Shown: positions 32,872-49,927 of the stretch, in pieces
Layout: every line of letters begins with the position of its first letter
Numbering within the stretch: the stretch's first letter is position 1
NCBI RefSeq assembly: GCF_011742555.1
Contig: NZ_JAAQQR010000007.1
Location: 62,001 to 126,000, forward strand
Direction of reading: 5' to 3'
DNA length: 64,000 bases
From: Luteibacter jiangsuensis
Lineage (GTDB): Bacteria; Pseudomonadota; Gammaproteobacteria; Xanthomonadales; Rhodanobacteraceae
Translations under genes and position numbers: made by a program
The notes under the pieces: generated by a model
The model's input: only the letters and a program-made list of their open reading frames with translations
Databases searched by the model: none
What the model was told of the DNA's origin: nothing

Positions 32872-33813
32872 GTGAATACACCCGCCTTCGTGGATTCGCC
32901 ATTGGAGCGGGCCCGCAGCATCGTCCAAGATGCGCGCTCGCATCGCGCGCCGTCGCCTCACGTGACGACCTTCTTCGATCCAGCCACCTTCACCGCCAGC
33001 CACGTGGTGCGCGACCCGCAGTCATCGGCGTGCGCCATCATCGATAGCGTGCTCGATTTCGACGTGGCCTCGGGCCGCACCGCCACGGATTCGCCCTCGG
33101 CGCTGGTCCGCCACGTGCGGGACGAGGGCCTGGACGTGCAATGGCTGCTCGAAACGCACGCGCATGCCGACCATCTGTCGGCCGCGCCATGGCTGCAGGA
33201 ACAGGTCGGTGGGACATTGGCCATCGGTGAGCACATAACCATCGTGCAGGACACCTTCGGCAAGGTCTTTAACGCCGGCACGGCGTTCAAGCGCGACGGC
33301 AGCCAGTTCGATCGTCTGTTCGCCGATGGCGCGTCCTTCAATATCGGTAACCTGCAGGCCACCGCCTTGTACGTACCGGGTCATACGCCGGCATGCGTGG
33401 CCTACGTGATCGGGGATGCCGTGTTTCCCGGCGATACCCTGTTCATGCCGGACTATGGCACCGCCCGCTGCGACTTCCCCGGCGGCTCGGCGCGTCAGCT
33501 CTACCGTTCCATCCAGCGCCTGCTCGCGCTGCCGGACGACACGCGGGTATTCCTCTGCCACGACTACAAGGCTGCCGGCCGCGACCAGTTCGCGTGGGAG
33601 ACCACCATAGGTGCCGAACGAACCGCCAACGTGCATGTACACGAAGGCGTAACAGAGGACATGTTCGTCGAGATGCGCGAGAAGCGGGACGCGACGCTTG
33701 CCATGCCCAGGCTGTTGCTGCCGTCCGTGCAGGTGAACATGCGTGCAGGTCACCTGCCCGAACCCGAAGACAACGGCGTGCGCTACCTGAAGCTGCCGGT
33801 GAACGTGCTATGA
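32872..33813 (+). CDS. MBL-fold hydrolase, ETHE1/Blh-like (probable persulfide dioxygenase)
   Basis: A protein of about 313 residues. The metal motif THAHADH (95-101) and downstream VPGHTPACVAYVIGDAVFPGDTLF and CHDYKAAGRD match the metallo-beta-lactamase fold of ETHE1 and bacterial Blh. These enzymes oxidise glutathione persulfide to sulfite. The sequence VTTFFDPATFTASHVVRDP is a common start in homologues, so a GTG at 32962 is an alternative to GTG 32872. It overlaps the convergent TauD-type gene by 6 bases. Confidence 0.82.
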   Translation: MNTPAFVDSPLERARSIVQDARSHRAPSPHVTTFFDPATFTASHVVRDPQSSACAIIDSVLDFDVASGRTATDSPSALVRHVRDEGLDVQWLLETHAHADHLSAAPWLQEQVGGTLAIGEHITIVQDTFGKVFNAGTAFKRDGSQFDRLFADGASFNIGNLQATALYVPGHTPACVAYVIGDAVFPGDTLFMPDYGTARCDFPGGSARQLYRSIQRLLALPDDTRVFLCHDYKAAGRDQFAWETTIGAERTANVHVHEGVTEDMFVEMREKRDATLAMPRLLLPSVQVNMRAGHLPEPEDNGVRYLKLPVNVL

Positions 33814-34764
33814 CCCTTCCCGCGTTGCACCCACGGGAGCCGTATCGAGGCGAAACCGCGAGCTGAAGGAACTCAGCATGACGATGTCGCGGGTCGGATC
33901 GGACGTCTGGTTCCGGCCATGCAGCATGCGGTTGTTGTCGATCAGCACGAAGTCGCCGGTCTGCCAGCGGATGCCGCGGGTGAGCGACCGCGCCACCTGC
34001 TTCAGGTCATCGAGCACCTCGTGAGGTATCTCGCTGCCGTCTTCCCAGGTCACCAGGGTACTGAAGGATCCGTCGGCCTCGTCGTCCGTCGGCTTCTTGT
34101 AGGCATCGGTGAACATGTTCTGACACACCCGCATCCTGCCCGCATCGCCTATCGGCCGCACGGACGGTGCGACGAACTCGAAGACCACCCTGCTTCCGGA
34201 CGTTTCCGTCACGCGGAAGTCCTGCGTCCGACTGAGTGCCCCGACCACGTCGGGCCCGACCAGTGAACCGACTGTCTCGTTCTTGCTGAGGATCGCTTCA
34301 AACGCGTCGGGCGGGACGAAGTTGCGATACATCACCCGCCGTGCCTTGAGCGCCTCCTGCGTTTCCGGTCGCAACTTCTCGAAGATGGCCGCCCCATCGG
34401 CCAGCAGTGTTTCGCCGCCCGTACCTTCGGAAGCGGCTTTCCGACAATAGAACCACAACAGGTCGGGCCTCAGCGGGCTGTTGCCGTATTCGAAATGGAG
34501 ACTCAGGCCCGCCTGTCCGACCGTGACGGTCTGCAGTTCGTTCCGGTCGCTGGCGGGCTTGCGGTCGCCGAACGGCGATACGAGAAACCCGCGACTGAAG
34601 CGGGAGGCAACGTCGTAGAACCCGTCCGCGTCGAGCCCGAACCCCCGGAACAGGATGGCCCCGTGCGAGGCGAGGCTGTCCCATATCTCGTCGTCCGGTA
34701 TGTCGGCCGCGTGGCGTCCCTGGCTGTGAAGCAGCAGCGGACGATCGTTGATGGTCTGGCTCAT
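33808..34764 (-). CDS. TauD/TfdA-family Fe(II)/2-oxoglutarate dioxygenase, last gene of the RiPP operon
   Basis: The protein has 318 residues. The iron triad is visible as His 90-Phe-Glu 92 (LSLHFEYGNSPLRPD, the HxE variant seen in clavaminate-synthase/SyrP-like enzymes) and His 282 (NNRMLHGRN). FYCRKAASEGTGGETLLADG is typical of the SyrP group, which hydroxylates amino acid residues in peptide natural products. It is the last gene of the minus-strand cluster, 25 bases after the ATP-grasp gene. The substrate is inferred to be the modified peptide or an amino acid joined to it. Confidence 0.82.
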   Translation of the reverse strand: MSQTINDRPLLLHSQGRHAADIPDDEIWDSLASHGAILFRGFGLDADGFYDVASRFSRGFLVSPFGDRKPASDRNELQTVTVGQAGLSLHFEYGNSPLRPDLLWFYCRKAASEGTGGETLLADGAAIFEKLRPETQEALKARRVMYRNFVPPDAFEAILSKNETVGSLVGPDVVGALSRTQDFRVTETSGSRVVFEFVAPSVRPIGDAGRMRVCQNMFTDAYKKPTDDEADGSFSTLVTWEDGSEIPHEVLDDLKQVARSLTRGIRWQTGDFVLIDNNRMLHGRNQTSDPTRDIVMLSSFSSRFRLDTAPVGATREGS

Positions 34765-34789
34765 GGTGACTCTCCTGGATGCCTCACGG

Positions 34790-35929
34790 TTACGCGTAGC
34801 CGATGGATGCCAACAGCTCGCAACGACGTTCCACCACTTCGGAAAGGCTGTCGCCCTTCAACACCGCCTTGAACTTGCCGTCGGCGCAATGCAGGCTGCG
34901 GTCCCTGCCGTCCTCGGCGACGAAGAATTCGACCAACCACGGCAACCCACGAAGCCGGCCGGCGTCGATGTCCAGGGATACCCCGTGCGGCACGAGCAGC
35001 CACGACGTTTCCGTGCGGCGCATGGAAGGCAGTTCGACGGGCCTGCCGCACTGGGCGAGGAAGGCAGCGCGATACAGATTGATTCCATAGGCCTCTTCGA
35101 GTGCGCGCACGATCCCGATGCCGCCGGGCCTGCTCGCGATTTCGCAGAAGACCATGTCCGTATCGGAATAGAACATCTCCAGGTGGAACGCGCCGTCCTG
35201 GAACGAGGGCAACAGCTGAAACACCTCGCGCATGGCCAGCTCGGCCCTGGCATTGAGCCGCGCGTCATGGGAGAACTCGCTGCCGACGTACTTGAAATCG
35301 GTGAAGGACAGGCAGAAGTTGATGTACTTGGAAACGACGAAGAAGCGCACCTCCCCCCCGACGATCAGCCCGTCGACATGCAGCATCGGCAGGTCGACGA
35401 ACGACTCCAGCATCTCGTCCTGCGCCACCTCCCCCATGGCGTGGAGGCTTTCGGCGATGGTCACCTCCATGCCGCCGGAGCCCAGGATCGGCTTCCGCAC
35501 GATGCGCCCGTCGTTCGCGCCACCGAAGACGGCAGCCACATCCTTGCGCTGGATGGGCGACCAATAGCGGGGCAAGGTGAAATGCTCCGCCGTCTTCAGG
35601 AATTCCTTCATGAAGAACTTGTTGCGGAACGCTCGGGCGCTCATGAACGACTGCCCGACGACACCCAGCGCTTCGCGGATCTTCGCCGCAACGAGGATGT
35701 ACTGCTCGTCCACGCAGACCACCCGCGCCACCTGGCCCGCGAGCCCTTCGGCTTCAAGCCTCGACACCACGCACCCGACCGTCATCTCGTCGACGATCAG
35801 CAGCGACATCGGCCCGTCGCTCTGCACGTTGACCGCAGCGCCCACGGGCTTTACCACGTAAAGGTGCGGTGTCGCCGGAAGCCGGAGCGGCTCCGCGCCG
35901 GCGATGAAAAGCACCACGTCATCCATCAC
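34790..35929 (-). CDS. ATP-grasp ligase-like protein
   Basis: The protein has 379 residues. An ATP-grasp layout is visible: RNKFFMKEFLKTAEHFTLPRYW (ATP-grasp N region), RIVRKPILGSGGMEV (nucleotide-binding lysine and Gly-rich loop), MLESFVDLPMLHVDGLIVGGEVRFF, and HLEMFYSDTDMVFCEIASRPGG (metal-binding Glu-x-Asn-like region with E-I-A-S-R). It resembles carnosine-synthase/biotin-carboxylase-like peptide ligases. It may add an amino acid or make an amide on the RiPP product. Its start overlaps the JmjC gene stop by four bases. Confidence 0.75.
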   Translation of the reverse strand: MMDDVVLFIAGAEPLRLPATPHLYVVKPVGAAVNVQSDGPMSLLIVDEMTVGCVVSRLEAEGLAGQVARVVCVDEQYILVAAKIREALGVVGQSFMSARAFRNKFFMKEFLKTAEHFTLPRYWSPIQRKDVAAVFGGANDGRIVRKPILGSGGMEVTIAESLHAMGEVAQDEMLESFVDLPMLHVDGLIVGGEVRFFVVSKYINFCLSFTDFKYVGSEFSHDARLNARAELAMREVFQLLPSFQDGAFHLEMFYSDTDMVFCEIASRPGGIGIVRALEEAYGINLYRAAFLAQCGRPVELPSMRRTETSWLLVPHGVSLDIDAGRLRGLPWLVEFFVAEDGRDRSLHCADGKFKAVLKGDSLSEVVERRCELLASIGYA

Positions 35930-36999
35930 GCGGCTCCCCGCAAGCCGTCGTCCTCAAGGTGATCGAGATAAAGCTGCCGTATACGCGCGTCCTCACTTCC
36001 CGAGGAGGCGATCGACGCCTTGAGGATCGCTGTCATGGCAAGCCTCCCGACTTCCACAGCCGACAGGCTTTCGACCTGGCCGCGCGTGAGGGCGCCCGCC
36101 AGTTTGTCCACGAAGATGTCCGGCCTGCTCTTGACGCGCGCCCCCAGGACGGAAGACCAGTCGGGGGAACGGGCATAGGCGGCGATGTTGCTCCGGTCGA
36201 CGAAGTCGAAGCTGACCGAGATCGAACGCTCGATCGTCCTCACATGATGCGCCCAGCCCGTGCCCACGAAGAGGACCTGCCCTTCCGTCAGATCCGCGGT
36301 CCAGGCCACGGCCTCGTCGCAGGTGGGGAAATCCTCGCGGTTCGGGTGCTCGGGATCCATGTATCCGACCGCCGGGTTGTGCACGTGGCGATGGTGCGCG
36401 GGCGAATAGAGCGTGGCCCGCTTGCGCCCCTGCAGCTGGGCTATCAGGGCGATGGTCCCGTTGTTGTCCACGTGCAGCGGCGTCAGCGATCCCGGGAGGC
36501 TCACCAGCAGCCACAGATGATTGAACAGGGAGTAGTAGTACGGCAGCGCGTGGTTCCAGGTTTCGATGGGGGCCGGCACGAGCGGGCGGAACTCCTCGAA
36601 AGCGGGATCCGTCGCGGTGTGGACGAAGCGCAAGGTGCCGCAGTACAGGGGCAGTCCTCGCTGCACGAACTCGTCGTATGAACCTTCCAGCCAGCGGCCC
36701 TCGAACAGTTCCTTCGCCCGGTCCGGAGCACGGATGTAACCGAGGTAGCGCGCGAAGTCCGTTTCCACGCTGACCAGACCGTCGTTCCGGTTCGTTATGA
36801 AGTTCGGCGCCTTCGCAAAGGCAGAGAGGTGGCCGAGGCGCTGCTCGAGGTAATCGACGTCCTGCCAGCGGCGATAGCCCGGCCACTCCTGGATGTATCC
36901 GGAAACGATCCACGGGCTCTCGTGCAGGAGGTCGGGATTCTTCACAAAGAGCTCTGCGAAGTCTTCGGCCGATACGGTGGGAATGTCCTTCTGTTTCAT
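35926..36999 (-). CDS. FIH-like JmjC/cupin-8 Fe(II)/2-oxoglutarate oxygenase (module 2)
   Basis: The protein has 357 residues. The iron ligands are His 176 and Asp 178 (TPLHVDNNG) and His 251 (GWAHHV). LQGRKRATLYSPAHHRHVHNPAVGYMDPEHPNREDFP resembles the factor-inhibiting-HIF group, which hydroxylates Asn and other residues in proteins. It is a paralogue of the protein at 39067-40140: the two have the same length and align without gaps over at least 260 residues. Start and stop overlap both neighbours by four bases. Likely target: the precursor core. Confidence 0.85.
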   Translation of the reverse strand: MKQKDIPTVSAEDFAELFVKNPDLLHESPWIVSGYIQEWPGYRRWQDVDYLEQRLGHLSAFAKAPNFITNRNDGLVSVETDFARYLGYIRAPDRAKELFEGRWLEGSYDEFVQRGLPLYCGTLRFVHTATDPAFEEFRPLVPAPIETWNHALPYYYSLFNHLWLLVSLPGSLTPLHVDNNGTIALIAQLQGRKRATLYSPAHHRHVHNPAVGYMDPEHPNREDFPTCDEAVAWTADLTEGQVLFVGTGWAHHVRTIERSISVSFDFVDRSNIAAYARSPDWSSVLGARVKSRPDIFVDKLAGALTRGQVESLSAVEVGRLAMTAILKASIASSGSEDARIRQLYLDHLEDDGLRGAA

Positions 37000-37868
37000 G
37001 CGAGCGCTCCGTCTGTCGCGGGTAAAGAGTGCGGAAGCCTGGCGCGCACCAGTACCGAGAGCACTTCGGCGGCGGCGCGGCTGGTCATGGCCTCGTGATC
37101 GAGCAACGGATTCACCTCCATCACGTCAGCCCCGACGATGTGTCGGCGGCGCGCCACTGTTCGAACCATGTTGCACAGCGTGTCGAGGCTCAGGCCTCCG
37201 GGAACCGGATGACCGGTGCCCGGCGCTATGCACGGATCGAGCACGTCGATGTCGATGGATACGTAAATCGGCCGCTCGCCTTCCAGCCAGGGGGAAGGAA
37301 TGGAAGGCGCATGGCCTGGCGACGCCGACCGAACCACCTCGAGCGCGGGCCATTGCAGCGATTCGTCGAAATACGTGATGCCGCGGTGACCCACGACCAG
37401 CAGGCGGCCAACGTGCGGAAGCGAGGCGATCCTGCGCAGCACCTGTTTGTGGTTGTGCCAGTCCGCGCCGTGCCACGGGCAGAAGTCGGTGTGCGCATCG
37501 AACCAGACGATGTCGAACGTGCCGACACGATCGAGTGCCGACACCGCCGCATACGACACGGCATGATCGCCCCCGAGCACGAGCGGCATGGCGCCCTGGC
37601 CCGCTATCCGGCGCACCCGCTCCCCCGTACGTTCGACGATCTCGGGCCAGTCCGCTCCGTCGAATACATCGACGTCGCCGAGGTCGTGGCCGGCCACGTC
37701 TTGCAACGGCATGCTCGCGCTCGATCGCCGAATGGCTTCCGGGCCCGCACGCGTTCCCGATACATAGGCATTGCCGAAGTCGCTCGGTACACCGATCACC
37801 CCCACGTCGCCGGGTACCAACGACGTGATCTCGCCTCGCGGCCAGCCGAACAGGCCGTGGTCGGTCAT
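36996..37868 (-). CDS. Arginase-family ureohydrolase, intact active site (module 2)
   Basis: The protein has 290 residues. All six manganese ligands are present: His 102 (LGGDHAVS), Asp 124, His 126 and Asp 128 (WFDAHTDF), Asp 206 and Asp 208 (SIDIDVLDP). It should remove urea from a guanidino group. Standing beside precursors with RCNGRC cores and an RRE-bearing partner, it is proposed to turn peptidyl arginine into ornithine, as known for peptide arginases of the OspR type. ATG 37868 overlaps the upstream stop by four bases. Confidence 0.85.
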   Translation of the reverse strand: MTDHGLFGWPRGEITSLVPGDVGVIGVPSDFGNAYVSGTRAGPEAIRRSSASMPLQDVAGHDLGDVDVFDGADWPEIVERTGERVRRIAGQGAMPLVLGGDHAVSYAAVSALDRVGTFDIVWFDAHTDFCPWHGADWHNHKQVLRRIASLPHVGRLLVVGHRGITYFDESLQWPALEVVRSASPGHAPSIPSPWLEGERPIYVSIDIDVLDPCIAPGTGHPVPGGLSLDTLCNMVRTVARRRHIVGADVMEVNPLLDHEAMTSRAAAEVLSVLVRARLPHSLPATDGALA

Positions 37869-39061
37869 ACCGGATCCTTCGCGGCACCAAGCGCCGTCAG
37901 CAGCAGATGCAACGCCGTCATGGCCACGCCGCCCCAGCCGGCCACTCCGGGGTCGGCGCCGCACAGGTCCACGGATACGATGCGGTAACTGCGACCGATG
38001 GCCAGCAGCAGCTCGTGAACCTCCGCATAGGTATGCGACGGCAGCGAAGGGCTATCGGATGCCTTCGCAAGCGAGTCGATATCGATGCCCACGTGTACGC
38101 GCTTCCGCTCCTGCGACGGATCCCGTAGCGCAGACAGCGCCGCCGCGTCGCCGTCGACGGCGACGCGAACGTAACGTTGCGACCGGTCGACACCGTCCCC
38201 TTGCATGACCGTCGGTACGACGTCGACATAGCGCTCTACATTCGGCAGCGACAGCGCGTACCCCGGCAGCGATTCGGCGGTCAGGCGAGGGGCATCTAAC
38301 GCATTCGCGTCGCACAGCGTTCGCCCGATGCGTATCACGTCGAGGGGACCGGCGCGCTGGGCCAGCTCGATCACCGGAAAAGCGGTGGACGCGTCGCCGC
38401 CGATCGACACGGGCAGCGCGCCGTCGCGTGTGAGTGTGGCGAGAACCTCGCTGGCTCGCGCAAAGGCGGCAGCGTGCCGCTCGCCGTGATTCACGACGAT
38501 GTCGCCGGCATCGGCCAGCGAGACGCCCGTCAGCACGGGGCAACGACGGTCCGCGTCGAACCAGCCGAGCGGGCGGCCGGTGAGCCGGTCCAATCCGTAG
38601 AGGATCTGCAACGAGGCCTCGCGGAGCGCGGACGGCCCGCGCCGGGCACCCGCGGCCGTGTACGAGCCGAAGTCCCAGGGCATGCCGAGGAAGACGATGT
38701 CCGCCTGCGCGGCGCGCAACTTCTGTGCCGGCGCGTCGAACATGCGAACGGGCGGATCCCACACGAGACGCTCGGGCGGAACCGCCGCGCTGCCAGGTGT
38801 GGCGAGAAACCCCTTGGCCGCCAACTGGGCCATGGCCCGCATCGCCGGCGCGGCGGGATCGCTCGTTCCGCATACCTCGTGCGGACTGGTTGCCGTCGCG
38901 AACCGAAGCAGCAGGCGATGGAGCGAGCGCGGGATGCGGAGGCGCGTGCCGTCGGACGAGAGAAAGATCGTGGCGGCCGAATCGTCCAGTTGCTCCACGG
39001 ACATCCAGGGCGACAACACCAGGGGGTCGTCGGGCGAGAAGCTTGCGTCGGTGCCCACCAT
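37865..39061 (-). CDS. RRE-like domain fused to a degenerate arginase-fold protein (module 2)
   Basis: The protein has 398 residues. Residues 12-88 have the length and pattern of a PqqD-like winged-helix RRE (beta strands, then LRIPRSLHRLLLRFATATSPHEV and a helix ending in AAKGFL). The rest follows the ureohydrolase fold (DIVFLGMPWDFGSYTAAGARRGPSALR) but the metal site is destroyed: GGDAST (221-226) replaces GGDHS and VIRIGRTL replaces the DAHTD strand, while GIDID is kept. It probably binds the leader and partners the intact ureohydrolase encoded next. It begins 6 bases after the JmjC gene stop. Confidence 0.8.
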   Translation of the reverse strand: MVGTDASFSPDDPLVLSPWMSVEQLDDSAATIFLSSDGTRLRIPRSLHRLLLRFATATSPHEVCGTSDPAAPAMRAMAQLAAKGFLATPGSAAVPPERLVWDPPVRMFDAPAQKLRAAQADIVFLGMPWDFGSYTAAGARRGPSALREASLQILYGLDRLTGRPLGWFDADRRCPVLTGVSLADAGDIVVNHGERHAAAFARASEVLATLTRDGALPVSIGGDASTAFPVIELAQRAGPLDVIRIGRTLCDANALDAPRLTAESLPGYALSLPNVERYVDVVPTVMQGDGVDRSQRYVRVAVDGDAAALSALRDPSQERKRVHVGIDIDSLAKASDSPSLPSHTYAEVHELLLAIGRSYRIVSVDLCGADPGVAGWGGVAMTALHLLLTALGAAKDPV

Positions 39062-39066
39062 GACGT

Positions 39067-40140
39067 TCAGGCAACCTCGGTCGAACGGTTGCCGACGGCA
39101 TGCAGCAGGCGCTCCTTCACCTGCCGCGACGTCGGGGAGAGCTCGGCCGCCAGGGCGGCGCGCAGCACGCAGGCCATCAGCTCCCGTCCAAGGTCGCAAA
39201 CGTCGCCCTCGTCCAGGCGGCTCAGCACCTCGTCGTACTGCACGCGGCTGCGCACAAGGTCCGCATGCTTCCTCGCAAAAAGGCCCAGCTCCGAGCACCA
39301 GTCCATCGACGTGGCATAGGCGTTGATGTTCAGGGCATTGACGATGTCGAAGCTGACGGTGATCGAGTCCGATCGCGTCACGACGTGGTGCGCCCAGTCA
39401 GGACCCCAAATGAGCAGTTCGCCCGGGGCGAGCGAACCTTTCCACGGTTGCGCTTCTCGCCACGTGGGGAAGTTCTCCTCGTCGGGATGCAACGGATCGA
39501 GATACCCCACGGCGGGATTGTAGAAATGGCGCTTGTCTTTGGGCGCGAAGAGGATCGCCTCCTTGTGTCCCTCGATCTGGGCGAGGTACGCGATGACCGC
39601 GTTGTTGTCCTGGTGCAGCGGCGTCAGCGCGCCCGCCCGGCTCACATACAGCCAGACATGGTTGCCGGACTGGTAGTAGTACGGAATGTGATCGTTGTAG
39701 ACAGGAAGGCCACCGGGCACGAGTGGCGAGATGTCGGCCAGCACGGGCTCATTCGCATGCCTGACCAACTGGAGGTTGCCGCAGTACAGCGGCAAGTCCA
39801 GTTCCCGCAGGAGTGCCGGATCGCCCTTCGTCCAGCGGCCCTCGAAAAGTGCTTCGAGCCTGTCGGGGTGGCGCACGTAGTCGAGGTAGGTGGCGAAGTC
39901 GGTCTGCACCTGGCACATGCGCGAGTGCGTGTTGGTGACGAACTGCGGCGCCCCCGCCGTGACCGGCAGGTGGCCGAACAATTGCGAGAGCGTGTCGAGG
40001 TTCCGCCAGCGCCGATAGGCGGGCCATGTCTCCACGAAGCCGGTGACATGGCATGGATGCCGTGCGAGCACATCCGGTGCCTTTTCAACCAGCGCCGCGA
40101 ACTCGTCGAGGGTAAAGCTCGGGATCTTCCTGGCTTCCAT
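39067..40140 (-). CDS. FIH-like JmjC/cupin-8 Fe(II)/2-oxoglutarate oxygenase (module 1)
   Basis: The protein has 357 residues with iron ligands His 176, Asp 178 (TPLHQDNNA) and His 251 (DWAHHV), in the same positions as its paralogue at 35926-36999. Shared landmarks include TWPAYRRW, LFEGRW, LPLYCGNLQLV and YNPAVGYLDPLHPD. ATG 40140 was chosen for its GGAG site and equal length to the paralogue. It probably hydroxylates the precursor core; Asn and Arg/Orn are the candidate residues. Confidence 0.85.
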   Translation of the reverse strand: MEARKIPSFTLDEFAALVEKAPDVLARHPCHVTGFVETWPAYRRWRNLDTLSQLFGHLPVTAGAPQFVTNTHSRMCQVQTDFATYLDYVRHPDRLEALFEGRWTKGDPALLRELDLPLYCGNLQLVRHANEPVLADISPLVPGGLPVYNDHIPYYYQSGNHVWLYVSRAGALTPLHQDNNAVIAYLAQIEGHKEAILFAPKDKRHFYNPAVGYLDPLHPDEENFPTWREAQPWKGSLAPGELLIWGPDWAHHVVTRSDSITVSFDIVNALNINAYATSMDWCSELGLFARKHADLVRSRVQYDEVLSRLDEGDVCDLGRELMACVLRAALAAELSPTSRQVKERLLHAVGNRSTEVA

Positions 40141-40162
40141 AGGCCCACTCCAGTCTCGGTTC

Positions 40163-42208: not shown

Positions 42209-43507
42209 TCACGCCCCCTCCGCCGCGGTCCGCGCCACCCGACGAAGGCGGCCGAGCATACGACCGAGGGCCTTGCCGATGTTCCAGAAGGTGAAACCGG
42301 CGCCGAGGATGACGAGGATGCGCCATCCTGTTTCGGCGACGGCATGAAGTACATTCGACCACGTGGCGTCCGACGCGAGCTTGCTCCACGTCTCGTTGGC
42401 GAACTGCGGCAGGTTGGTCAGCACACTGAGGACGACCACCACGAACATCGTCTTCATGACATAAGCGATGAAGAGCGTCCCGAGGATGGTGTAGACCGCC
42501 AGCACACGCTTGGCCATCGGCTTCAACGTGCTGCGGCTCGTATGAGTGCGCGGATGGAGTATCCGCTCGATCAGATCCTGCCACCATATCTCCTGCTGCT
42601 TCCGCAGGTTCACGATGCCGAATAGATCGCTGACGAGCCAGTAGCCGTCCATGCGAAGGAATGGGTTGAAGGTGTTGGCGATGGATAGGTCGACGAAGAT
42701 GAAGCCGAACAGGAAGATGGGATTGTTCGTCGCCAGGTAGCCGACCAACAGCGCGAAAAGCGCGAACGATTCGAAATACACGCCGCCGATATCGACTATC
42801 GCGCGATGTTTCCTCGGCAGCTTCCATGCATCCGAAACGTTCGTCCACAGGACGGTGTAGATCAGGTACACACCCCATCCGATCGTCATGTTGCGGCAGC
42901 CGAAATGGGCGGCGGCGGTGGCGTGGCCGAACTCATGGCAGATGGTGGCAAGGGTGGAGATCAGCATGAGCAGGAGCACGCTGGCGATGCCCAGTTCGCC
43001 GAACTCGAAATGCTGCCCTCGGAAGAGGAACCCGTACACGACCACGTGCATGGCCACGAACCCGACGAGGCCGACGATCATCGCCGCGGGCCGGTAGAGA
43101 AAGGAAAGGCTTCGGGCCACCGGCTCGACGAGGCTCGACCGTATGATGGGGAGCTTCACGTGCAGGAAGGCCTTGTCGGACTGGCTGCTGGTGGCGCATC
43201 GCGGATCCTGGTCCGCGCGGATCACGATGCCCTTGGGCACCAGCGATTCCGTCACCAGGCGGGTCAGCCACGACTTGTCCCGTTCGGGACGGTGCTTGTC
43301 GATGAACGACTGGATCGCCGCATCGGTGTCGCGCTGTCCGTCGAATTCGCGCGCGAGCGCCATGTAATCGGCCGGCAGCGCGAAGCGCACTTCGCCGGCC
43401 CCGCCCGCCCGGGGTATGAGGCACAGCTTCATGGGTTTCCCGGCATCCGAATCGAAGTCCGAGACTTCCAGGAGCGGGTTGATGACATGCGGGACGTCGT
43501 GGGTCAT
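42209..43507 (-). CDS. M50-family membrane metalloprotease of the RiPP cluster
   Basis: The protein has 432 residues. The N-terminal 110 residues are soluble and may be a peptide-binding domain. Several transmembrane helices follow, with zinc motif HEFGH (191-195) and the distal NPFLRMDGYW (281-290), typical of the site-2-protease-like peptidases found beside radical SAM and PqqD-type RiPP genes. It is the candidate for cutting the leader from the modified precursor at the inner membrane. It follows the precursor genes after a strong hairpin. Confidence 0.83.
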   Translation of the reverse strand: MTHDVPHVINPLLEVSDFDSDAGKPMKLCLIPRAGGAGEVRFALPADYMALAREFDGQRDTDAAIQSFIDKHRPERDKSWLTRLVTESLVPKGIVIRADQDPRCATSSQSDKAFLHVKLPIIRSSLVEPVARSLSFLYRPAAMIVGLVGFVAMHVVVYGFLFRGQHFEFGELGIASVLLLMLISTLATICHEFGHATAAAHFGCRNMTIGWGVYLIYTVLWTNVSDAWKLPRKHRAIVDIGGVYFESFALFALLVGYLATNNPIFLFGFIFVDLSIANTFNPFLRMDGYWLVSDLFGIVNLRKQQEIWWQDLIERILHPRTHTSRSTLKPMAKRVLAVYTILGTLFIAYVMKTMFVVVVLSVLTNLPQFANETWSKLASDATWSNVLHAVAETGWRILVILGAGFTFWNIGKALGRMLGRLRRVARTAAEGA

Positions 43508-43621: not shown

Positions 43622-43759
43622 TCAGCCGCCCGTCGGCTGGCTGGTCTTGTTGCAGCGGCCGTTACAGCGATCGGCGAGTTCCAGACGATCTTCGAGCTCG
43701 ATGATCTCGAATTCGTCGATGAGCAGTTCGCCGTTGTTGCTTTCGATGTTCGTATTCAT
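43622..43759 (-). CDS. RiPP precursor peptide B
   Basis: A 45-residue peptide. After MNTNIESNNGE comes the conserved block LLIDEFEIIELEDRLELA, then DRCNGRC and the tail NKTSQPTGG. The acidic amphipathic leader, the short Cys/Arg core and the place between maturation genes identify a precursor. GGAGAAAT lies ahead of ATG 43759. It has the same length as precursor A, and the leader and RCNGRC blocks are identical in protein but not in DNA (many synonymous changes), a sign of selection on the peptide. Confidence 0.85.
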   Translation of the reverse strand: MNTNIESNNGELLIDEFEIIELEDRLELADRCNGRCNKTSQPTGG

Positions 43760-43846: not shown

Positions 43847-43984
43847 TCAGGCGCTCGTGGGCTTGCTCTGGCCGTCGCAACGGCCGTTGCAGCGACCGGC
43901 GAGCTCGAGACGATCTTCCAGTTCGATGATCTCGAACTCGTCGATCAACAGCGATTCGTTGGTGTGCTCGGTGCTATTGGTCAC
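43847..43984 (-). CDS. RiPP precursor peptide A
   Basis: A 45-residue peptide starting at GTG 43984 with AGGAAA seven bases before. After TNSTEHTNES comes LLIDEFEIIELEDRLELA, then GRCNGRC and the tail DGQSKPTSA. Core candidates for modification are two Arg (to ornithine), two Cys (radical SAM thioether or disulfide), the Asn (hydroxylation) and a Lys in the tail. It lies 118 bases after the acyltransferase-like gene and 87 bases before precursor B. Confidence 0.85.
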   Translation of the reverse strand: MTNSTEHTNESLLIDEFEIIELEDRLELAGRCNGRCDGQSKPTSA

Positions 43985-44102
43985 GTCGATTTCCTTTTGA
44001 TGTTCCAATGAAGGCGACGGGCGAACCGGCGCCGCGTGATGTGCGTGGTTTTCCACATCGCCGCCCCGCACATCGCAGGCGGCAATACCGATTCTTTGCG
44101 CC

Positions 44103-45401
44103 TCAGGCGGCCGACAGCGACACGCCGTCGAAGAGCGACAAGCCACGGCGCGACGCCAGCACACAGAGGAATCGCCAGACGCTTGCGCGACGCGCCGTGC
44201 CGAGTCCGTCCAGCCAGTCGCGCGTGATGCCGCGGCTTCCGTCCTGAAGCAGGTCGGCGAACTCGCCTTCCTCTTCCGGCAGCCGATAGCACTTCATGGA
44301 GTGCACATCGACGAACACGCGCTCCCCACGGCTGGACAGGGGCATCAGGCGCGACAGGTCGAGCGCGGCCCTGCCATGGCCGTCGAGCACGGACGCCAGC
44401 CGTGCTTCCGCCACCGACAACGGCTCCTCGTCGATTCCGCGCGGCAGCCTCCATTGATGGAACAGATCGCCGCCACACCACTCTCCCGCCGCATGCAACA
44501 GGGTTTCGGCCAGCACCTGGTAAAGATCGCGGACGGTGGCCTCCACGAAGTCGGTCGCTTCCTCACCGGTGAGCGGACGTCCGGGGTCCGCGACGGGGAA
44601 GACATGGCAGACTCGTTCCCCATCGACGGTGGTGGCGATGACGGGAATGATGGGAGCGCCGAACCTCGCCGCCATGGCGATCAGGCCGTTCTTCACGCGG
44701 GCTTCGGTGCCGAGCATGTTCACGATGGAACGCCGATCGCCGCCACGGGGGCCGTCGAGTCCGGTGTTACCGTCGATCGTGGACAGCACGCAGCCGCCAC
44801 GCGCCAGGTGCCGCGCCAGCGCAAGCGAGCCTGCCGCCTCTTCCACGCACACGTGCCGGAAGCACTTCCAGAGGGCAGCCTCGGGGCAGTCCAGGCGCGC
44901 CGATTCATAGTTGCCGTAGGCATCACGCGCCAGCGGCACCATGATCGGTATGCCGGCATGGGCGAGGTCCGACGGAATGTCGCGCATATAGCCGAGGTGG
45001 AACGTCGCGATGATGGCGCCGCGTCCTTGCGCGAGGAGTCCTTTCACGGCATCGACCGGGAGGCCCCGCAGCCGCGGCGGTGGCGGCACCACGTCCAGCC
45101 TCGACAGATAGTGGTGGTGGTATTCCCAGCCGAGCCACATCTTGCTGATGGCCGCCTCGCGAGCGAGGCGCAGCACGGCATCAGGCGCCATGTGCCCACC
45201 CAGTAGCGCCATGAGGTTCATGCGGTACGAACGAAGCCCGTAGTGGGCAAGGTCGTCGTCGCTCAGGACCAGAAGCCTCGCATGCACCTCCGACGGATCC
45301 GCGTCGTCGGAGGAAAGCAGATCGTTCACCTGCCATACCGCCGGCGGCACCTGCGGCATGCCGTCGTCGCCGTCGCCGTCGATGCGCGGCACGGCGGTCA
45401 C
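44103..45401 (-). CDS. Acyltransferase-like protein (LpxL/HtrB fold) with extra C-terminal domain, RiPP cluster
   Basis: The protein has 432 residues. The middle part (about 60-310) resembles the lysophospholipid/lipid A acyltransferase fold: IIATFHLGYMRDIPSDLAHAGIPIMVPLARDAYGNYESARLD and NGLIAMAARFGAPIIPVIATTVDG. The catalytic HX4(D/E) is not exact (His 135, Asp 141), so activity is uncertain. The C-terminal 110 residues are an added small domain, possibly RRE-like (RVFVDVHSMKCYRLPEEEGEFADLLQ). It has no N-terminal membrane helix. GTG 45401 overlaps the radical SAM stop. It may attach a fatty acid to the peptide. Confidence 0.65.
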   Translation of the reverse strand: MTAVPRIDGDGDDGMPQVPPAVWQVNDLLSSDDADPSEVHARLLVLSDDDLAHYGLRSYRMNLMALLGGHMAPDAVLRLAREAAISKMWLGWEYHHHYLSRLDVVPPPPRLRGLPVDAVKGLLAQGRGAIIATFHLGYMRDIPSDLAHAGIPIMVPLARDAYGNYESARLDCPEAALWKCFRHVCVEEAAGSLALARHLARGGCVLSTIDGNTGLDGPRGGDRRSIVNMLGTEARVKNGLIAMAARFGAPIIPVIATTVDGERVCHVFPVADPGRPLTGEEATDFVEATVRDLYQVLAETLLHAAGEWCGGDLFHQWRLPRGIDEEPLSVAEARLASVLDGHGRAALDLSRLMPLSSRGERVFVDVHSMKCYRLPEEEGEFADLLQDGSRGITRDWLDGLGTARRASVWRFLCVLASRRGLSLFDGVSLSAA

Positions 45402-46852
45402 GGCGCGGGCTCCAGTGCCACGGCAGCCGCTTGCCGCTGGGTCGACTCGAAGTAGGCCACCATCTCCTGCTTCGCCGTGCGCCGGATACCCGGACAGGGG
45501 CGCTCGCCCGAATCGATGCGGATCTTGGGACAGTGCACGCCCTGACAAGCCGCGAGCATGTGGCAACTCTGGCATCCGGAATCGCGTTCGAAGGCCGGCT
45601 CGGTCCACAAGGCCATCTTGTCGACGTCGAGATCGAGCGTGCCGTCGGTCTTCAGCGTACCCACGATGTTGTGGTCGGCCTTGTCGAGGTCGATGGTGCA
45701 TTTCATGAGATCGCCATGCGCACCGACGATGAAGTTGTACGGCCGCGCCGCGTAACACACTTCCTCGCCGGCACCGAGTCCGGGTTGCCATCCGCCGGTG
45801 ACGTTGAGCCCCAGCGACCGCGCGAGCGCCGTCACCTTCGTGCGCACGGCCTGCGACTCGTCCACGCCGCACACGGCGAGGTTGGCATCGTTGGCGCCGC
45901 CCCACTGGCCCACCGAGTGGAACGCCAGCACGAACCGGTCGTCGTTCGCGAAGCGCTCCTGCAGCATCGGCAGGAAGGCTTCCAGGCCCGGCGAATTCTC
46001 CTTGTCGAAGTTCACGCGGATGACGACGGTAAAGCGATCAGGCCGCTCGGCCAGGCGGCAGAGGTTGTGGAAGATCGTATCGAACGTCTTGCCGCCGTCG
46101 CGCGCACCACGATGGCGGTCATGGTCCTCGGGCAGCCCGTCGAGGGTGATCTGGAAGTCGTTGATCCTGGCGGCCAGTAACCGGTCGGCCACGTCGTCGG
46201 TCAACAGGTAGCCGTTGGTGGTCATGTGGGTGTGGTAACGGAGGCCGGCCTCGTCCGCGATCTGGGTGAAGAACGGGCCCAGGTCGTCGATGGCCTCCAT
46301 GCCGTAGAGCGGTTCGCCACCGAACCAGGAAACACTGAGTTCCTTCAACGCGCCGAGCCTGCTCCGCACGAGATTCTTGATGCCTTCGCGCACCTCGGGA
46401 AGCATCGTTCCCCGGCGGAAGTCCTCGTAACAGTAGGTACAGCGGAAGTTGCAGTCTTCCGAGGCGAGAAGGATCAGTTCGAGGCGATCGGTGCGGTGGT
46501 TCTCGGTGCCGAACGCATACTGCACGCGGCGCAGTTCGTCCGTCGCCATCGGTACGAGGAATCCGCGGTCGACGAGGTAACGGCTTATCTTGCGGCCTTC
46601 GTCGGCGTCGGTCTTCTGGCTGATCAACGCCCGGACCGCGTCGTGCTGTTCCGGACGAAAGGCGTTCATGGAGCCGCTGTAGGTATTCCACAACAGCAGC
46701 CAGCCTTCTTCGGTGGTGGCCTGCACGTTGAAGCGCGAAGGTTTCAGTCGGACGGGCGGCTTCCTGGCCGCGGTGCCAATCGGCTCTTCGACCAGGCGAA
46801 TGGGAATGCGGTCCAGCGGTGACTTCGAGAGAACGTCGCTATTCGTACCCAC
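45398..46852 (-). CDS. Radical SAM/SPASM peptide maturase
   Basis: The protein has 484 residues. An N-terminal domain (about 35-100, LKPSRFNVQATTEEGWLLLWNTYSGS..KISRYLVDRGFLVP) is typical of peptide-modifying members. The [4Fe-4S]-SAM motif is CNFRCTYC (134-141). SWFGGEPLYG and MTTNGYLLTDD are further radical SAM motifs. The SPASM region (about 365-455) has Cys-rich CYAARPYNFIVGAHGDLMKCT and CQSCHMLAACQGVHC, giving auxiliary clusters. The core has no aromatic residue, so thioether formation is likelier than cyclophane chemistry. GTG 46852 has GGAGG five bases before. Confidence 0.92.
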   Translation of the reverse strand: MGTNSDVLSKSPLDRIPIRLVEEPIGTAARKPPVRLKPSRFNVQATTEEGWLLLWNTYSGSMNAFRPEQHDAVRALISQKTDADEGRKISRYLVDRGFLVPMATDELRRVQYAFGTENHRTDRLELILLASEDCNFRCTYCYEDFRRGTMLPEVREGIKNLVRSRLGALKELSVSWFGGEPLYGMEAIDDLGPFFTQIADEAGLRYHTHMTTNGYLLTDDVADRLLAARINDFQITLDGLPEDHDRHRGARDGGKTFDTIFHNLCRLAERPDRFTVVIRVNFDKENSPGLEAFLPMLQERFANDDRFVLAFHSVGQWGGANDANLAVCGVDESQAVRTKVTALARSLGLNVTGGWQPGLGAGEEVCYAARPYNFIVGAHGDLMKCTIDLDKADHNIVGTLKTDGTLDLDVDKMALWTEPAFERDSGCQSCHMLAACQGVHCPKIRIDSGERPCPGIRRTAKQEMVAYFESTQRQAAAVALEPAP

Positions 46853-47002
46853 AACAACCTCCAATGTCCTATGCACAAGAACGATGGCGCATCGGGGAGC
46901 GCCCGGCCGCGGTGCATTCCCGCGGCAGGTGTCCCATCCGGTGGATCCGGCATGGCTATGGAATTCACTGCGCGATGCCCCCCGGCATCGCGTTTTCACC
47001 CT

Positions 47003-48253
47003 TTACATCGAACGTATCGCGCTGGCGGGCTCGACGCGCGCCGCGCGGCGCGCGGGAACGAAGGTCGAAGCCTGGCTCAAGGCAAGCACGCACACGACGC
47101 CGAGCAGCACGTCGGTCACGGGCAGGCGATCCATTTCATAGCGCTTGATGAGCGCGAAATTCAGGCCGACCGCAAGCACGATGCCCAGTACGGCGCCGGA
47201 GCCCACGATCAGGAGATTCTCGACCTGGAAATAACCGAGGATGTCGCGGCGCCGCGCACCGAGCGCGCGCCGAATGCCGATCTGCCGCTCGCGCTGATCG
47301 ACCCAGAAGCTGGTGAGCCCGAACACCCCTGCCGCCGTCACGCACAGGAGGATCAGCGACACGCCGCCCATGAGCATGGCCATGCCGATGTCCGCCCGGT
47401 AGGCGTCGTGGCGGATGTCCGCGTAGCTCTGGATGCCATCCTCCGCGATCACGCGCTGGCTGTTCGCCTGGTACAGCGCGTCCGGCGCGGCGCGCATCGC
47501 GGCGGCCAGGCGGCCGGGCTTCGCCCTCACCGCGTATCGCGAGAACGTGGAATTCAGGCGCGTGGGCACGAGAACGGAGCTATAGGCGAAGCTGGTACTG
47601 AACGCGTTGGTACCCGGCGTCTGCAGTCTCTCCACGATGCCGACGATCGAGGCCGGCGCGCCGCCTCCGTCCAGGTAGACGTTCTTGCCGAGGGCGCTGC
47701 CATCGGGGAAGAGCCTCCGGGCAATCTCCTGGCTGACGATGATCCGCGACGGCGTGTTCGCATCGCCCAGCGCCTTGTGCTCGACATCCGCGGCCGTGAA
47801 AGCACGCCCCGCCACGAGTTTCACGCCGAGCGCGGGCAGGACGTTCTCGTCCGTGAAATAGAAACTGGCCTGAAGGTTCGCCTTGGGCTGTTCGGGAGCA
47901 AGGCCGATGCCGCCGTTCCACGCCGCCGAGTTCAGCAGGGGCAGGGAATTGATCGGCGCGACCGATGCGACGTCCGGAAGTGCGCGCAGCACGGCCAGGT
48001 CTTCGCGCTGCATCGTGTCGAGGCGCTCGATAGCATCCTTCCCGTCTGCGTCGCCTTCGCTCACCCATTGTTGGGTGACCAGGAAGAGCCCGTCTTCGTC
48101 CAGTCCCGTCGCCCGCGCGATGCGTTCGATGCGCCCGCCGATGATGAAGACCGAGTTGCAGACGATCGCCAGGGTCAGGGCGATCTGCAACACGATGAGT
48201 GCGACACCGGCCTTGTGTCGACGCAATGCGGAGATCATGGGATGCATGGTCAT
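47003..48253 (-). CDS. ABC transporter permease, MacB/FtsX type (second copy)
   Basis: The protein has 416 residues. A transmembrane helix at about 16-40 is followed by a large periplasmic domain, then three C-terminal helices (SLILLCVTAAGVFGLTSFWV; NLLIVGSGAVLGIVLAVGLNFAL; VLLGVVCVLALSQASTFV) with the ERQIGIRRALGARRRDIL coupling motif. It is encoded 9 bases after the first permease gene, so the two probably form a heterodimer. No ATPase or adaptor gene lies in the cluster. Confidence 0.85.
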   Translation of the reverse strand: MTMHPMISALRRHKAGVALIVLQIALTLAIVCNSVFIIGGRIERIARATGLDEDGLFLVTQQWVSEGDADGKDAIERLDTMQREDLAVLRALPDVASVAPINSLPLLNSAAWNGGIGLAPEQPKANLQASFYFTDENVLPALGVKLVAGRAFTAADVEHKALGDANTPSRIIVSQEIARRLFPDGSALGKNVYLDGGGAPASIVGIVERLQTPGTNAFSTSFAYSSVLVPTRLNSTFSRYAVRAKPGRLAAAMRAAPDALYQANSQRVIAEDGIQSYADIRHDAYRADIGMAMLMGGVSLILLCVTAAGVFGLTSFWVDQRERQIGIRRALGARRRDILGYFQVENLLIVGSGAVLGIVLAVGLNFALIKRYEMDRLPVTDVLLGVVCVLALSQASTFVPARRAARVEPASAIRSM

Positions 48254-48262
48254 GTCACCGCC

Positions 48263-49600
48263 TCACTGCGATTTCAGCTGCCAGGTGGGCTGTACCAGCG
48301 TCGCCCGGAAGGTCGGATAGAGCCCGGCGAGCAAGGTGGATATCAACGCAAGCAGCAGAGTGAGCACCAGGAGGGCGAAGTCGACACGCGCAAGCGACGC
48401 TATGTCGGCCGGCAGGAGCCAATGAACACACGCGACGCCCAGCCCGGTCAGGGCCAGCCCGAGCAACCCGCCGGCGATACCGATCATGCCCGCCTCAGTG
48501 AGGAACTGCGCATAGATCGCGCCGCGCGGAGCACCGATCGCGCGGCGGACGCCGATTTCTCCGCTCCTGCGCAGGAACTTCGCCAATAGCAGGCCCGAGG
48601 TGTTCACCAGACAGACGATGAGGAGACCGAGAGCGACCAGCAAGGAAACGCCCGTATCCGCGGGTACCACGTGCTGGGCATCGAGCCATGCGGGGACGTC
48701 GCGCAGGCGGTTGTTGGGTGCCCATGTCGTCGCACCGCTGTCTTGAAGTTGACGCGCGTAGCCGTCGAGGTAAGCGCGATAGGAGCGAACGGCGTTCGCA
48801 TCGTCGAGCTGGACGAGATAGGAAATCCAGACGCACGTGGATTCCTTCAGTCCGGTGATGCCCCCTTCGCTCGGACTCTTGCTGCACCCCGTGTTGCCGG
48901 TGCTGGCCATGCCCGCGCCGACCGCCGTTTCGAACGGAAGGAACACGTCTTCGCGGGTGGTGGTGAAGCCACCGGTGTTGACGATGTCGAAGAACCGCGG
49001 CTGCGGATCCCAATGGGCCAGCACACCGACGATCCGGTAACTCTTCCCGGCCACCTGCAGCGATTCCCCGACGCTGTTGCGCCCCTGGAAAAGCCGCCGA
49101 TTGAGCGTGTCGCCGATGACGACGACATTCGCCCGCCGTTCGTCGTCCTGCCTGCTCCAGCCGGAACCGAAAGCGAACGGCACCTCCAGCATCGGAAAGA
49201 AATCGCTGCTTACCGCATGCCCGTCCACGTTCACGGGATGGCTTCCGGCCCGCATCGCGAGCACCGCGGGCGAAACCTTGTAGATGGCGGCCTGCATCGA
49301 ACCGCGTCGATCGTTCAACAACGAGGTGGCGGTGCGATAGTCGAGCGCGGCAGGCGGCTCACCGTCCTTTCCCCGCTCCGACGGGCCCCACACATCCACC
49401 TGGGGAACGAAAAGACGTTGCGATTTCCACGGAATGGGGTCGCCGGAGACCGCGCGAAAGACGGAGAACGTCGTCATCGAAGCGGCCACACCGAAACCGA
49501 TCGCGAGCACCATGAGCGCCGTCAACCCCGGGCTGCGCCGGAAGCTACGTAAAGCAAGTTCAAGGTAATAGGAAAACAAACCCTGCCCCCTTGCCGTCAT
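48263..49600 (-). CDS. ABC transporter permease, MacB/FtsX type (first gene of RiPP operon)
   Basis: The protein has 445 residues. The N-terminal SYYLELALRSFRRSPGLTALMVLAIGFGVAASMTTFSVFRA is typical of MacB-like permeases. After a periplasmic domain (about 50-330) come three helices and the RRSGEIGVRRAIGAPRGAIYAQFL motif. It may export the mature peptide or protect the producer. ATG 49600 is preferred to a TTG six bases earlier. A strong promoter lies about 150 bases upstream. Confidence 0.85.
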   Translation of the reverse strand: MTARGQGLFSYYLELALRSFRRSPGLTALMVLAIGFGVAASMTTFSVFRAVSGDPIPWKSQRLFVPQVDVWGPSERGKDGEPPAALDYRTATSLLNDRRGSMQAAIYKVSPAVLAMRAGSHPVNVDGHAVSSDFFPMLEVPFAFGSGWSRQDDERRANVVVIGDTLNRRLFQGRNSVGESLQVAGKSYRIVGVLAHWDPQPRFFDIVNTGGFTTTREDVFLPFETAVGAGMASTGNTGCSKSPSEGGITGLKESTCVWISYLVQLDDANAVRSYRAYLDGYARQLQDSGATTWAPNNRLRDVPAWLDAQHVVPADTGVSLLVALGLLIVCLVNTSGLLLAKFLRRSGEIGVRRAIGAPRGAIYAQFLTEAGMIGIAGGLLGLALTGLGVACVHWLLPADIASLARVDFALLVLTLLLALISTLLAGLYPTFRATLVQPTWQLKSQ

Positions 49601-49751
49601 TGGCAATGCCGCTCACGAGCCGTTGCATCGAAGATGCACGGTACCCCCCGTCGTCACTTCGGACGTCACGCTTGCGAGCCGCACTCGATGGCGATGGGCT
49701 ATTGCCGCGCTCATCGCGTGCCATCGCGGCCGCTTTGTGTGATGGGGATTG

Positions 49752-49781
49752 TCTATAAGGGCGAGCACAACAGCGTGTCAA
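49752..49781 (-). promoter_or_regulatory. Sigma-70-type promoter of the RiPP operon
   Basis: On the minus strand, TTGACA (49776-49781) is a perfect -35 and TATAGA (49752-49757) the -10, with an 18-base spacer. Transcription would start near 49745, giving a leader of about 145 bases before the first permease gene. Confidence 0.7.
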
Positions 49782-49909
49782 TACGAAATTGCCCAGCGTC
49801 GTTCATGTCGCAATTTTCTCGACGATGTCTGTGGTGCGCGTCACGATTTCATTTCGGCGCTTCGCGCTTGCAGTCAGCGTGCCGAGCGTCGTTGTGTAAG
49901 AGCATCCCG

Positions 49910-49927
49910 TGTAGGGGAACACCTACA
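49910..49927. promoter_or_regulatory. TGTAGG-N6-CCTACA inverted repeat upstream of the RiPP operon
   Basis: A perfect 6-N6-6 dyad, about 170 bases upstream of the predicted start of transcription. The same arms occur at 52060-52077. The form recalls binding sites of LuxR/NarL-family response regulators such as the GacA box (TGTAAG-N6-CTTACA). Confidence 0.55.

Follow-up and report, generated by a model that had tools for sequence, protein, structure and literature searches.

KgrD, an arginase of family PF00491, makes peptidyl ornithine in the enteropeptin pathway (PMC12703449), and in biphenomycin biosynthesis the JmjC enzyme BipG hydroxylates peptidyl ornithine, not arginine (PMC12707348). 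The related pbs pathway uses an arginase and then an ornithine hydroxylase (PMC12257519), and metformin hydrolase is an α2β4 heterohexamer that combines active ureohydrolase subunits with inactive β ones (PMC11399263), all as described in the portions of these papers that were consulted. We analyzed a 64,000-nucleotide stretch of the Luteibacter jiangsuensis genome (contig NZ_JAAQQR010000007.1, positions 62,001 to 126,000; hereafter the window), in which fifteen minus-strand genes, starting near 49600 and ending at 33808, form what we read as a cluster for a ribosomally synthesized and post-translationally modified peptide (RiPP) with the core R-C-N-G-R-C. We give this reading, including the whole proposed pathway of leader-guided ureohydrolase pairs, hydroxylation and an Asn-x-x-Cys (NxxC) thioether, a probability of about 0.6. 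The active and inactive subunits of metformin hydrolase, KgrD and BipG serve as precedents for the proposed heteromers, ornithine formation and hydroxylation.

The genes run in the order permA and permB (permeases), a radical S-adenosylmethionine (radical SAM) enzyme, an acyltransferase-like protein, precursors A1 and A2, an M50-like protease, the triplets pUH1-UH1-J1 and pUH2-UH2-J2, an ATP-grasp protein and a TauD-type oxygenase, where UH stands for a ureohydrolase whose motifs are intact, pUH for a ureohydrolase-like protein that lacks them, and J for a Cupin_8/JmjC oxygenase. Pfam families found in the cluster were two FtsX/MacB permeases, Radical_SAM, Arginase PF00491 (four proteins), Cupin_8/JmjC (two), ATP-grasp_3 and TauD; together with the precursor they bear out the first-pass annotation of the DNA, which had proposed a RiPP cluster with arginase-family, JmjC, TauD and radical SAM enzymes. 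A module comprising the radical SAM, acyltransferase-like, precursor, M50-like, pUH1, UH1, J1, pUH2 and UH2 genes was present in nine genomes: that of the window, Luteibacter sp. SG786, Luteibacter G010, Fulvimonas soli, Sphingomonas gei, an uncultured Sphingomonadales bacterium, an Erythrobacter metagenome-assembled genome (MAG), Myxococcus vastator and Myxococcota G794. The eight genomes besides the window's span Gammaproteobacteria, Alphaproteobacteria and Myxococcota, and this recurrence of the enzyme set argues that the arrangement is not due to chance. J2 was present in eight of the nine, being missing from Fulvimonas.

Precursor peptides and ureohydrolase pairs

Both precursors in the window are 45 residues long; the leader that they share hardly varies and the core is invariant (ELEDRLEL-x-x-RCNGRC), and a search of the window's genome matched these two and nothing else. 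Among nine aligned precursors from seven genomes, 21 residue columns were invariant, including the stretches D-E-F-E-I, E-L-E-D-R-L-E-L and R-C-N-G-R-C, and Arg directly preceded Cys twice in every one. The residue directly C-terminal to the core was Asp in seven of the nine and Asn in two, and the remaining tail was variable. In 36 pairwise comparisons of the 25-codon leader/core block, the proportion of nonsynonymous differences (pN) was 0-0.053 against 0.32-0.90 for synonymous differences (pS), which indicates that the protein sequence has been kept while the DNA drifted. The two short precursor-like peptides noticed at first pass are thus real, and the precursor set is a real RiPP family. 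A check for homologous loci that keep the enzymes but lack a precursor, suggested at the same time, found none: all nine genomes with the enzyme module also have the precursor. If the stronger, new-class form of the proposal given below is correct, invariance of the core over three bacterial groups would point to one conserved target or signal and not to an arms-race toxin. Finding the same fixed core in such distant bacteria suggests a conserved function that merits a search.

The four PF00491 proteins fell into two classes by score, two at 192-198 bits and two at 61-67 bits. The motifs GGDH, DAHTD, DxDxx[DE]P and EVNP were kept in 16 of 16 UH proteins (eight UH1, eight UH2), and none of them was found in any of 16 pUH proteins (eight pUH1, eight pUH2). 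The genes for the intact and the metal-motif-less ureohydrolases were adjacent in all eight aligned loci, in both units. The pUH genes had initially been called degenerate; the loss of motifs was confirmed, but their reading as decayed gene copies was dropped, given the constant pairing with an intact copy and an RRE-like (RiPP recognition element-like) front domain in the modelled pUH2. In the AlphaFold2 model of pUH2 (pLDDT 84.6), four strands within residues 14-44 and three helices within 45-82 precede the ureohydrolase fold. This strand-then-helix order is close to the bbb-aaa order required of RREs, according to the part consulted of a study that also notes fusions of RRE-like and JmjC domains that have bacterial homologues in RiPP-like settings (PMC12710340). 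Foldseek ranked agmatinase as the best match to the model (E 2e-16), with metformin hydrolase in the top ten, and a profile comparison found the front domains of pUH1 and pUH2 to be homologous (98% probability).

Motif retention and loss, the strands-then-helices front domain of the pUH2 model and the precedent of metformin hydrolase together suggest a division of roles in which pUH would bring the leader and UH would do the chemistry, the pair acting as a leader-guided heteromeric peptide arginase. Several results weigh against the predicted RRE-like nature of the front domain. Its assignment rests on fold order in the model; Pfam matched no family to the pUH front domains; profile comparison with domains of the radical SAM enzyme, protease and acyltransferase-like protein gave at most 22% probability; and no RRE chain was among the 50 Foldseek matches listed of 1178 for pUH2. 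Among solved structures, UH1 was closest to agmatinase (1wog) and UH2 to proclavaminate amidinohydrolase. Their earlier description as OspR-type arginases was not upheld, and that filing was rejected: all four belong to PF00491, none to PF12640, and in family they resemble KgrD of the enteropeptin pathway.

The unit pUH-UH-J is present twice, with the same internal order. In a tree of 32 ureohydrolases, a single branch set each of UH1, UH2, pUH1 and pUH2 apart from the rest (bootstrap 95-100), and all UH were split from all pUH at bootstrap 100; a tree of 15 JmjC proteins split J1 from J2 at 100. Both trees were midpoint-rooted. SG786 was included in these alignments though it is a near-copy of the window (radical SAM proteins 98% identical), and G794, found afterward, is in none. 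The simplest reading of the trees is that one unit was copied once, before the loci spread among distant bacteria. The two units parallel the two invariant core arginines, which suggests one arginine per unit. Two observations count against so neat a correspondence. The leader holds a third invariant Arg (EDRLEL), so that conservation of Arg by itself fails to pick out two, and Fulvimonas has a single JmjC gene yet both core arginines and both UH pairs, so one JmjC per arginine is not a strict rule.

Proposed cross-link, candidate pathway and alternative readings

The radical SAM motif CxxxCxxC was present in eight of eight orthologues. The window protein carries seven further cysteines in its C-terminal part with SPASM spacing CxxC-x5-C-x4-C; a preset SPASM-cysteine pattern matched none of the eight. 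Relatives 49-55% identical to it in Polyangium and two Acidobacteriota-type MAGs are accompanied by the same kind of leader (for example, FEIAELDDLDLAGVSGG), and no UH or J was found at these loci. In cores of ureohydrolase-less relatives, G187 of the Rhodanobacteraceae included, Asn stood three residues before Cys in 10 of 11, compared with 2.9 after shuffling. None of 4000 shuffles gave a count as high, and spacings of 1, 2, 4, 5, 6 and 7 were at chance. The count excluded the SG786 and G794 precursors (near-copies) and a Cys-less second frame in G187, and cores were cut by hand. All nine UH-bearing precursors also have Asn at this position, though with a near-identical core they amount to one observation. 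This enrichment makes an Asn-Cys thioether between N33 and C36 our first choice, and the radical SAM enzyme more likely forges this NxxC link than an enteropeptin-type Arg-Cys ring. Tempering this choice, the scan was made after the pattern had been noticed, and the set holds near-copies, several from Polyangium; by eye there are about eight distinct core types, seven with NxxC.

Two side observations concern radical SAM loci. In Polyangium (L031-L034), pairs of GG-type, Cys-rich precursors lie just downstream of radical SAM genes whose products are 51-54% identical to the window's, with cores such as DCGCRGGSC...NGxC that look like a further NxxC-type family. Fulvimonas soli (L020, G029) has a second, distant radical SAM gene (98-868, at the contig start; 32-33% identity).

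The relative in G187 keeps the leader block but has the core WKCCNGSCN, in which Cys and Ser replace the two core arginines. Within 36 kb around this precursor, pieces of the radical SAM gene, the acyltransferase, the M50 gene and precursors are present, and no UH, pUH or J was found at E 1e-3; a J1 search of the whole G187 genome gave no match at E 1e-5. A core without arginines in a locus without arginase or JmjC genes is as our model predicts, and we take it as a hint only. Other features of G187 weaken even this. An insert carrying an ISL3-type transposase interrupts the radical SAM gene, and past the protease gene there is a pair of IS21-type genes, so the missing genes were possibly lost by decay; this is a single genome, and a partial ureohydrolase match occurs elsewhere in it (33% identity, E 1.1e-9). 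A second precursor-like frame in G187 (L133, 18258-18482) has a diverged leader, VDEFEIVEFEDRTELA, has lost the Cys core and lies near insertion sequences; we read it as a decaying copy.

Building on the calculated gene content, conservation, twin units, motif retention or loss and predicted folds, we infer the reactions, their order and the assignment of arginines as follows. RRE-like domains on several of the enzymes would bind the leader (FEIIELEDRLEL), and the radical SAM enzyme would cross-link the second Cys, with the Asn three positions before it as the probable partner. Next, each of the two ureohydrolase pairs would turn one core Arg into Orn, with pUH recruiting the leader and shaping the heteromer and UH hydrolyzing, and the JmjC of each unit would hydroxylate the residue handled by its UH pair. 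The LPLAT-fold protein may attach a fatty acyl group, the M50-type protease would remove the leader, and the MacB/FtsX permeases would export the product or protect the producer.

A stronger form of this proposal is a new RiPP class in which a dead ureohydrolase acts as substrate receptor and two such pairs, each with its hydroxylase, place two site-specific hydroxyornithines in a hexapeptide that also carries an Asn-Cys thioether and is afterward lipidated; we consider this less likely than not. If true, it would add a further architecture for peptidyl ornithine, in which a pseudoenzyme partner bearing a leader-binding domain gives a PF00491 enzyme its specificity, and would explain why paired "broken" ureohydrolases persist. 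It could also supply tools for site-addressable conversion of Arg to Orn, possibly hydroxyornithine, and a natural test case for how two substrate positions are shared out between the copies of a doubled enzyme unit.

The alternative that survives best, although we consider it unlikely, keeps ornithine formation by the UH proteins but places hydroxylation by the JmjC enzymes, acting in an FIH-like way, on the core Asn or the post-core Asp/Asn in place of Arg or Orn. The HxD...H motif was kept in J1 (8/8) and J2 (7/7), whose closest solved relatives were JMJD5 and then FIH or JMJD7. The first-pass term "FIH-like" was correct as to kinship, and "JMJD5/FIH-like" describes them better, since JMJD5 is the top solved relative of both. 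FIH is thus among the relatives, the core Asn is invariant and the post-core residue is always Asp or Asn, giving the oxygenases an alternative target that tells against hydroxylation of Arg or Orn. On the other hand, JMJD5, whose PDB entry also carries the name arginyl-hydroxylase, outscored FIH for both J1 (1.1e-07 vs 1.8e-05) and J2 (1.6e-10 vs 2.4e-07), and J stands with the UH pair inside the doubled unit.

Slightly less probable is an enteropeptin-like route, in which the radical SAM enzyme would make two Arg-Cys thiomorpholines, joining each Cys to the alpha carbon of the preceding Arg, before the arginases act. The two R-C pairs in the core and the PF00491 enzymes fit this route. In the parts of the literature consulted, enteropeptin C (SMKGOCPPS) has O, N-methylornithine, directly before Cys (PMC12395415), and KgrD, itself of PF00491, needs the thiomorpholine (PMC12703449). 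Against it, the same radical SAM family serves cores that have N-x-x-C but no R-C pair, the two arginines give way to Cys and Ser in G187, and Pfam found no methyltransferase family among the fifteen genes.

It is improbable that the substrate of the UH proteins and oxygenases is a free small molecule, for instance a hydroxylated guanidino compound as in clavulanate biosynthesis, which the ATP-grasp enzyme would join to the peptide. The kinship of UH2 to proclavaminate amidinohydrolase and of the ATP-grasp protein to an L-amino acid ligase would suit it, but the ATP-grasp gene was found only in the three Luteibacter loci whereas all nine genomes with the module have J1 and both UH pairs, the closest solved relative of UH1 is agmatinase, and pUH has an RRE-like domain in the model. 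An arginine-metabolism operon with a chance small open reading frame (ORF), suggested by the enzyme families alone, is ruled out by a precursor conserved under purifying selection and present in all nine genomes with the module.

Gene organization, accessory proteins and distribution

Coordinates are collected in Table 1. The fifteen co-directional genes were where the first-pass annotation had placed them, and the frequent overlaps of 1-4 bases that it reported are borne out: radical SAM/acyltransferase (45401/45398), pUH1/UH1 (at 41005), pUH2/UH2 (37868/37865), UH2/J2 (36999/36996) and J2/ATP-grasp (at 35926), with an overlap of 11 bases between UH1 and J1 if J1 starts at 40173. Its extent of 33808-49927 holds for the gene set but not at the 5' limit, as the first permease starts near 49600 and the remainder to 49927 is upstream sequence. 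The radical SAM gene probably starts at 46852, which corrects an earlier gene call. A promoter and terminator scan found nothing exceeding shuffles.

Table 1 Features of the candidate RiPP cluster (window coordinates)
Feature	Coordinates	Strand	Basis
permA, MacB/FtsX-type permease (putative export or self-protection)	48263..49600	-	Pfam MacB_PCD/FtsX
permB, second MacB/FtsX-type permease	47003..48253	-	Pfam
Radical SAM/SPASM peptide maturase (putative)	45398..46852	-	Pfam; NCBIfam TIGR04463 E 2.5e-59, below cut-off
Acyltransferase-like, PatA/LpxM (LPLAT) fold with RRE-resembling C-terminal domain	44103..45401	-	AlphaFold2, Foldseek
Precursor A1, GTG start, core RCNGRC-D	43847..43984	-	Translation, conservation
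Precursor A2, ATG start, core RCNGRC-N	43622..43759	-	Translation, conservation
M50-like intramembrane metalloprotease, HEFGH and NPFLRMDGY	42209..43507	-	NCBIfam daptide_HExxH E 5.5e-25, below cut-off
pUH1, RRE-like N-terminal domain (predicted) and ureohydrolase pseudoenzyme	41005..42207	-	PF00491; catalytic motifs gone
UH1, intact ureohydrolase, proposed peptide arginase for one Arg	40163..41005	-	PF00491 E 1.4e-56
J1, Cupin_8/JmjC oxygenase; alternative start 40140	39067..40173	-	Pfam; HxD...H
pUH2, RRE-like N-terminal domain (predicted) and ureohydrolase pseudoenzyme	37865..39061	-	PF00491; AlphaFold2 model
UH2, intact ureohydrolase, proposed peptide arginase for other Arg	36996..37868	-	PF00491 E 2.9e-58
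J2, Cupin_8/JmjC oxygenase	35926..36999	-	Pfam; HxD...H
ATP-grasp, L-amino acid ligase-like, accessory	34790..35926	-	ATP-grasp_3; 4wd3
TauD-type oxygenase, accessory	33808..34764	-	TauD E 1.3e-31

The model of the acyltransferase-like protein (AlphaFold2, pLDDT 86) matched PatA in Foldseek (E 4e-10, TM 0.78 by target length) and also LpxM. Its C-terminal domain consists of strands followed by helices, and to this domain we ascribe a weak match of the model to TbiB1, a lasso peptide RRE (E 0.09). Eight members of the family searched against Pfam matched no family (best E 0.2, for one member). LPLAT acyltransferases use an HX4(D/E) catalytic motif. All eight proteins here have FHxGxxR, with Arg at the position five after His that is usually acidic, which leaves lipidation uncertain. 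The gene is also kept in G187, whose core lacks Arg, so the enzyme need not act on Orn, and acylation of Orn is correspondingly weakened as a proposal. The M50-like protein had no Pfam match and hit the NCBIfam daptide intramembrane metalloprotease model below its cut-off; the HEFGH and NPFLRMDGY motifs were present in eight of eight orthologues.

The full enzyme set of the first-pass annotation is present in the window, but ATP-grasp and TauD proved accessory and not core. The ATP-grasp protein, which resembles the L-amino acid ligase 4wd3 (E 5.6e-15), is encoded only in the three Luteibacter loci, and the TauD gene is in all four Rhodanobacteraceae loci with the module. Neither was found in the available downstream sequence of S. 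gei, Sphingomonadales and G794; in M. vastator and Erythrobacter the contig ends within about 2 kb of J2, which makes the test for their absence a weak one in these two. Orthologues of permA occur in all four Rhodanobacteraceae loci with the module, and FtsX/MacB genes are near the module also in S. gei, Sphingomonadales (where permease genes sit between UH1 and J1) and G794. Between isocitrate lyase and comM in Luteibacter G018 (L161, 9485-14295), orthologues of permA and permB 77-79% identical to the window's (47003-49600) lie beside a 643-residue ORF with no Pfam match and without biosynthetic genes. We read them as a possible orphan exporter or immunity pair, which would fit a role in self-protection or export.

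Relatives were collected by scanning 84,980 species genomes with the radical SAM query (105 relatives, 80 kept). All fifteen proteins were compared with 33 stretches (L012-L044), and precursors were sought in 82 loci (the 80 kept plus L133 and L135) with a seed profile that contained pieces from those loci. SG786 and Fulvimonas, with two handles each, were counted once. Confident precursors were found in 12 of the 80 kept loci (L023-L034), and five stretches with weak radical SAM matches (L018-L022) were without the module. The precursor profile matched 5 of 233 Rhodanobacteraceae genomes (G187, which is divergent, among them), 2 of 396 genomes from the order to which S. gei belongs and 2 of 195 from the phylum that includes M. 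vastator. When the search was widened, the window's order (3 of 398 genomes) and the S. gei class (1 of 385) contributed no further genome. By this profile the family is rare; a limited number of candidates was scored per genome, so misses are possible. Plasmid searches returned only two radical SAM matches (40-42%), in Deinococcus, and no UH2.

The isocitrate lyase-comM interval (window 32512-50059) measures about 270 bases in Luteibacter G011, 4.5 kb in G002, 5.3 kb in G018 and 17.5 kb in the window, and may be an insertion hotspot within the genus; in Luteibacter G010 the cluster lies far from comM. Elsewhere in the window, a 789-residue ORF (58652-61021) partially matches the tryptophan halogenase family (PF04820, E 4.5e-14), has a third-position GC of 0.74, below most neighbours, and adjoins a ketoacyl synthase-like gene (56633-57835).

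Comparison with known systems

The first-pass view that no described class has this full gene set agrees with our search of open-licence PubMed Central, in which no comparable set appeared among the titles and abstract openings listed; the scope of this search did not extend to MIBiG, antiSMASH, papers behind subscriptions or the majority of preprints. Neither RCNGRC nor the leader strings occurred in any of the 5.39 million open-licence papers there, nor did agmatinase, RiPP, radical SAM and precursor peptide occur together in one. We read the locus as belonging to a RiPP family whose arginase architecture is new, and we found no description of this family.

Biphenomycins (bip/pbs) share an arginase followed by a JmjC/cupin ornithine hydroxylase and a radical SAM cross-link. 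They use an MNIO, a PF12640/UPF0489 arginase, an aromatic FRF core and a B12-dependent radical SAM enzyme, whereas the Luteibacter cluster has no MNIO match, PF00491 arginases, the core RCNGRC and a SPASM-type radical SAM enzyme; filing it with the biphenomycins was rejected for its core and lack of an MNIO match. The landornamide and selidamide systems (OspR, PF12640), which include acyl-ornithine RiPPs, share peptidyl conversion of Arg to Orn and possibly acylation, but their arginase is of the other family, and selidamide acyltransferases are GNAT-type while the candidate here has the LPLAT fold. The NxxC RaS-RiPPs (NxxcB) share the Asn-x-x-Cys core motif and a radical SAM maturase, a likeness of motif and enzyme type, and the review section consulted mentions no ureohydrolase or oxygenase for them. 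Daptide biosynthesis shares the M50-like protease (E 5.5e-25); to our knowledge, the other daptide genes are absent here. Metformin hydrolase likewise has two adjacent ureohydrolase genes, one without a metal centre, but acts on a small molecule, and no leader-binding domain is reported in the part of its description consulted.

Enteropeptins (KGR; KgrC/KgrD) share a radical SAM enzyme with a PF00491 arginase, Arg directly before Cys and an expected ornithine, a likeness of families and motifs as described for them. The Luteibacter cluster differs in that no counterpart of the Fe-S methyltransferase that N-methylates ornithine there was found in it by Pfam, and in having two UH/pUH pairs, JmjC enzymes, an LPLAT-fold protein and an M50-like protease. 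Its hosts are proteobacterial and myxobacterial, and the motif that runs across its radical SAM family is NxxC, not KGRC.

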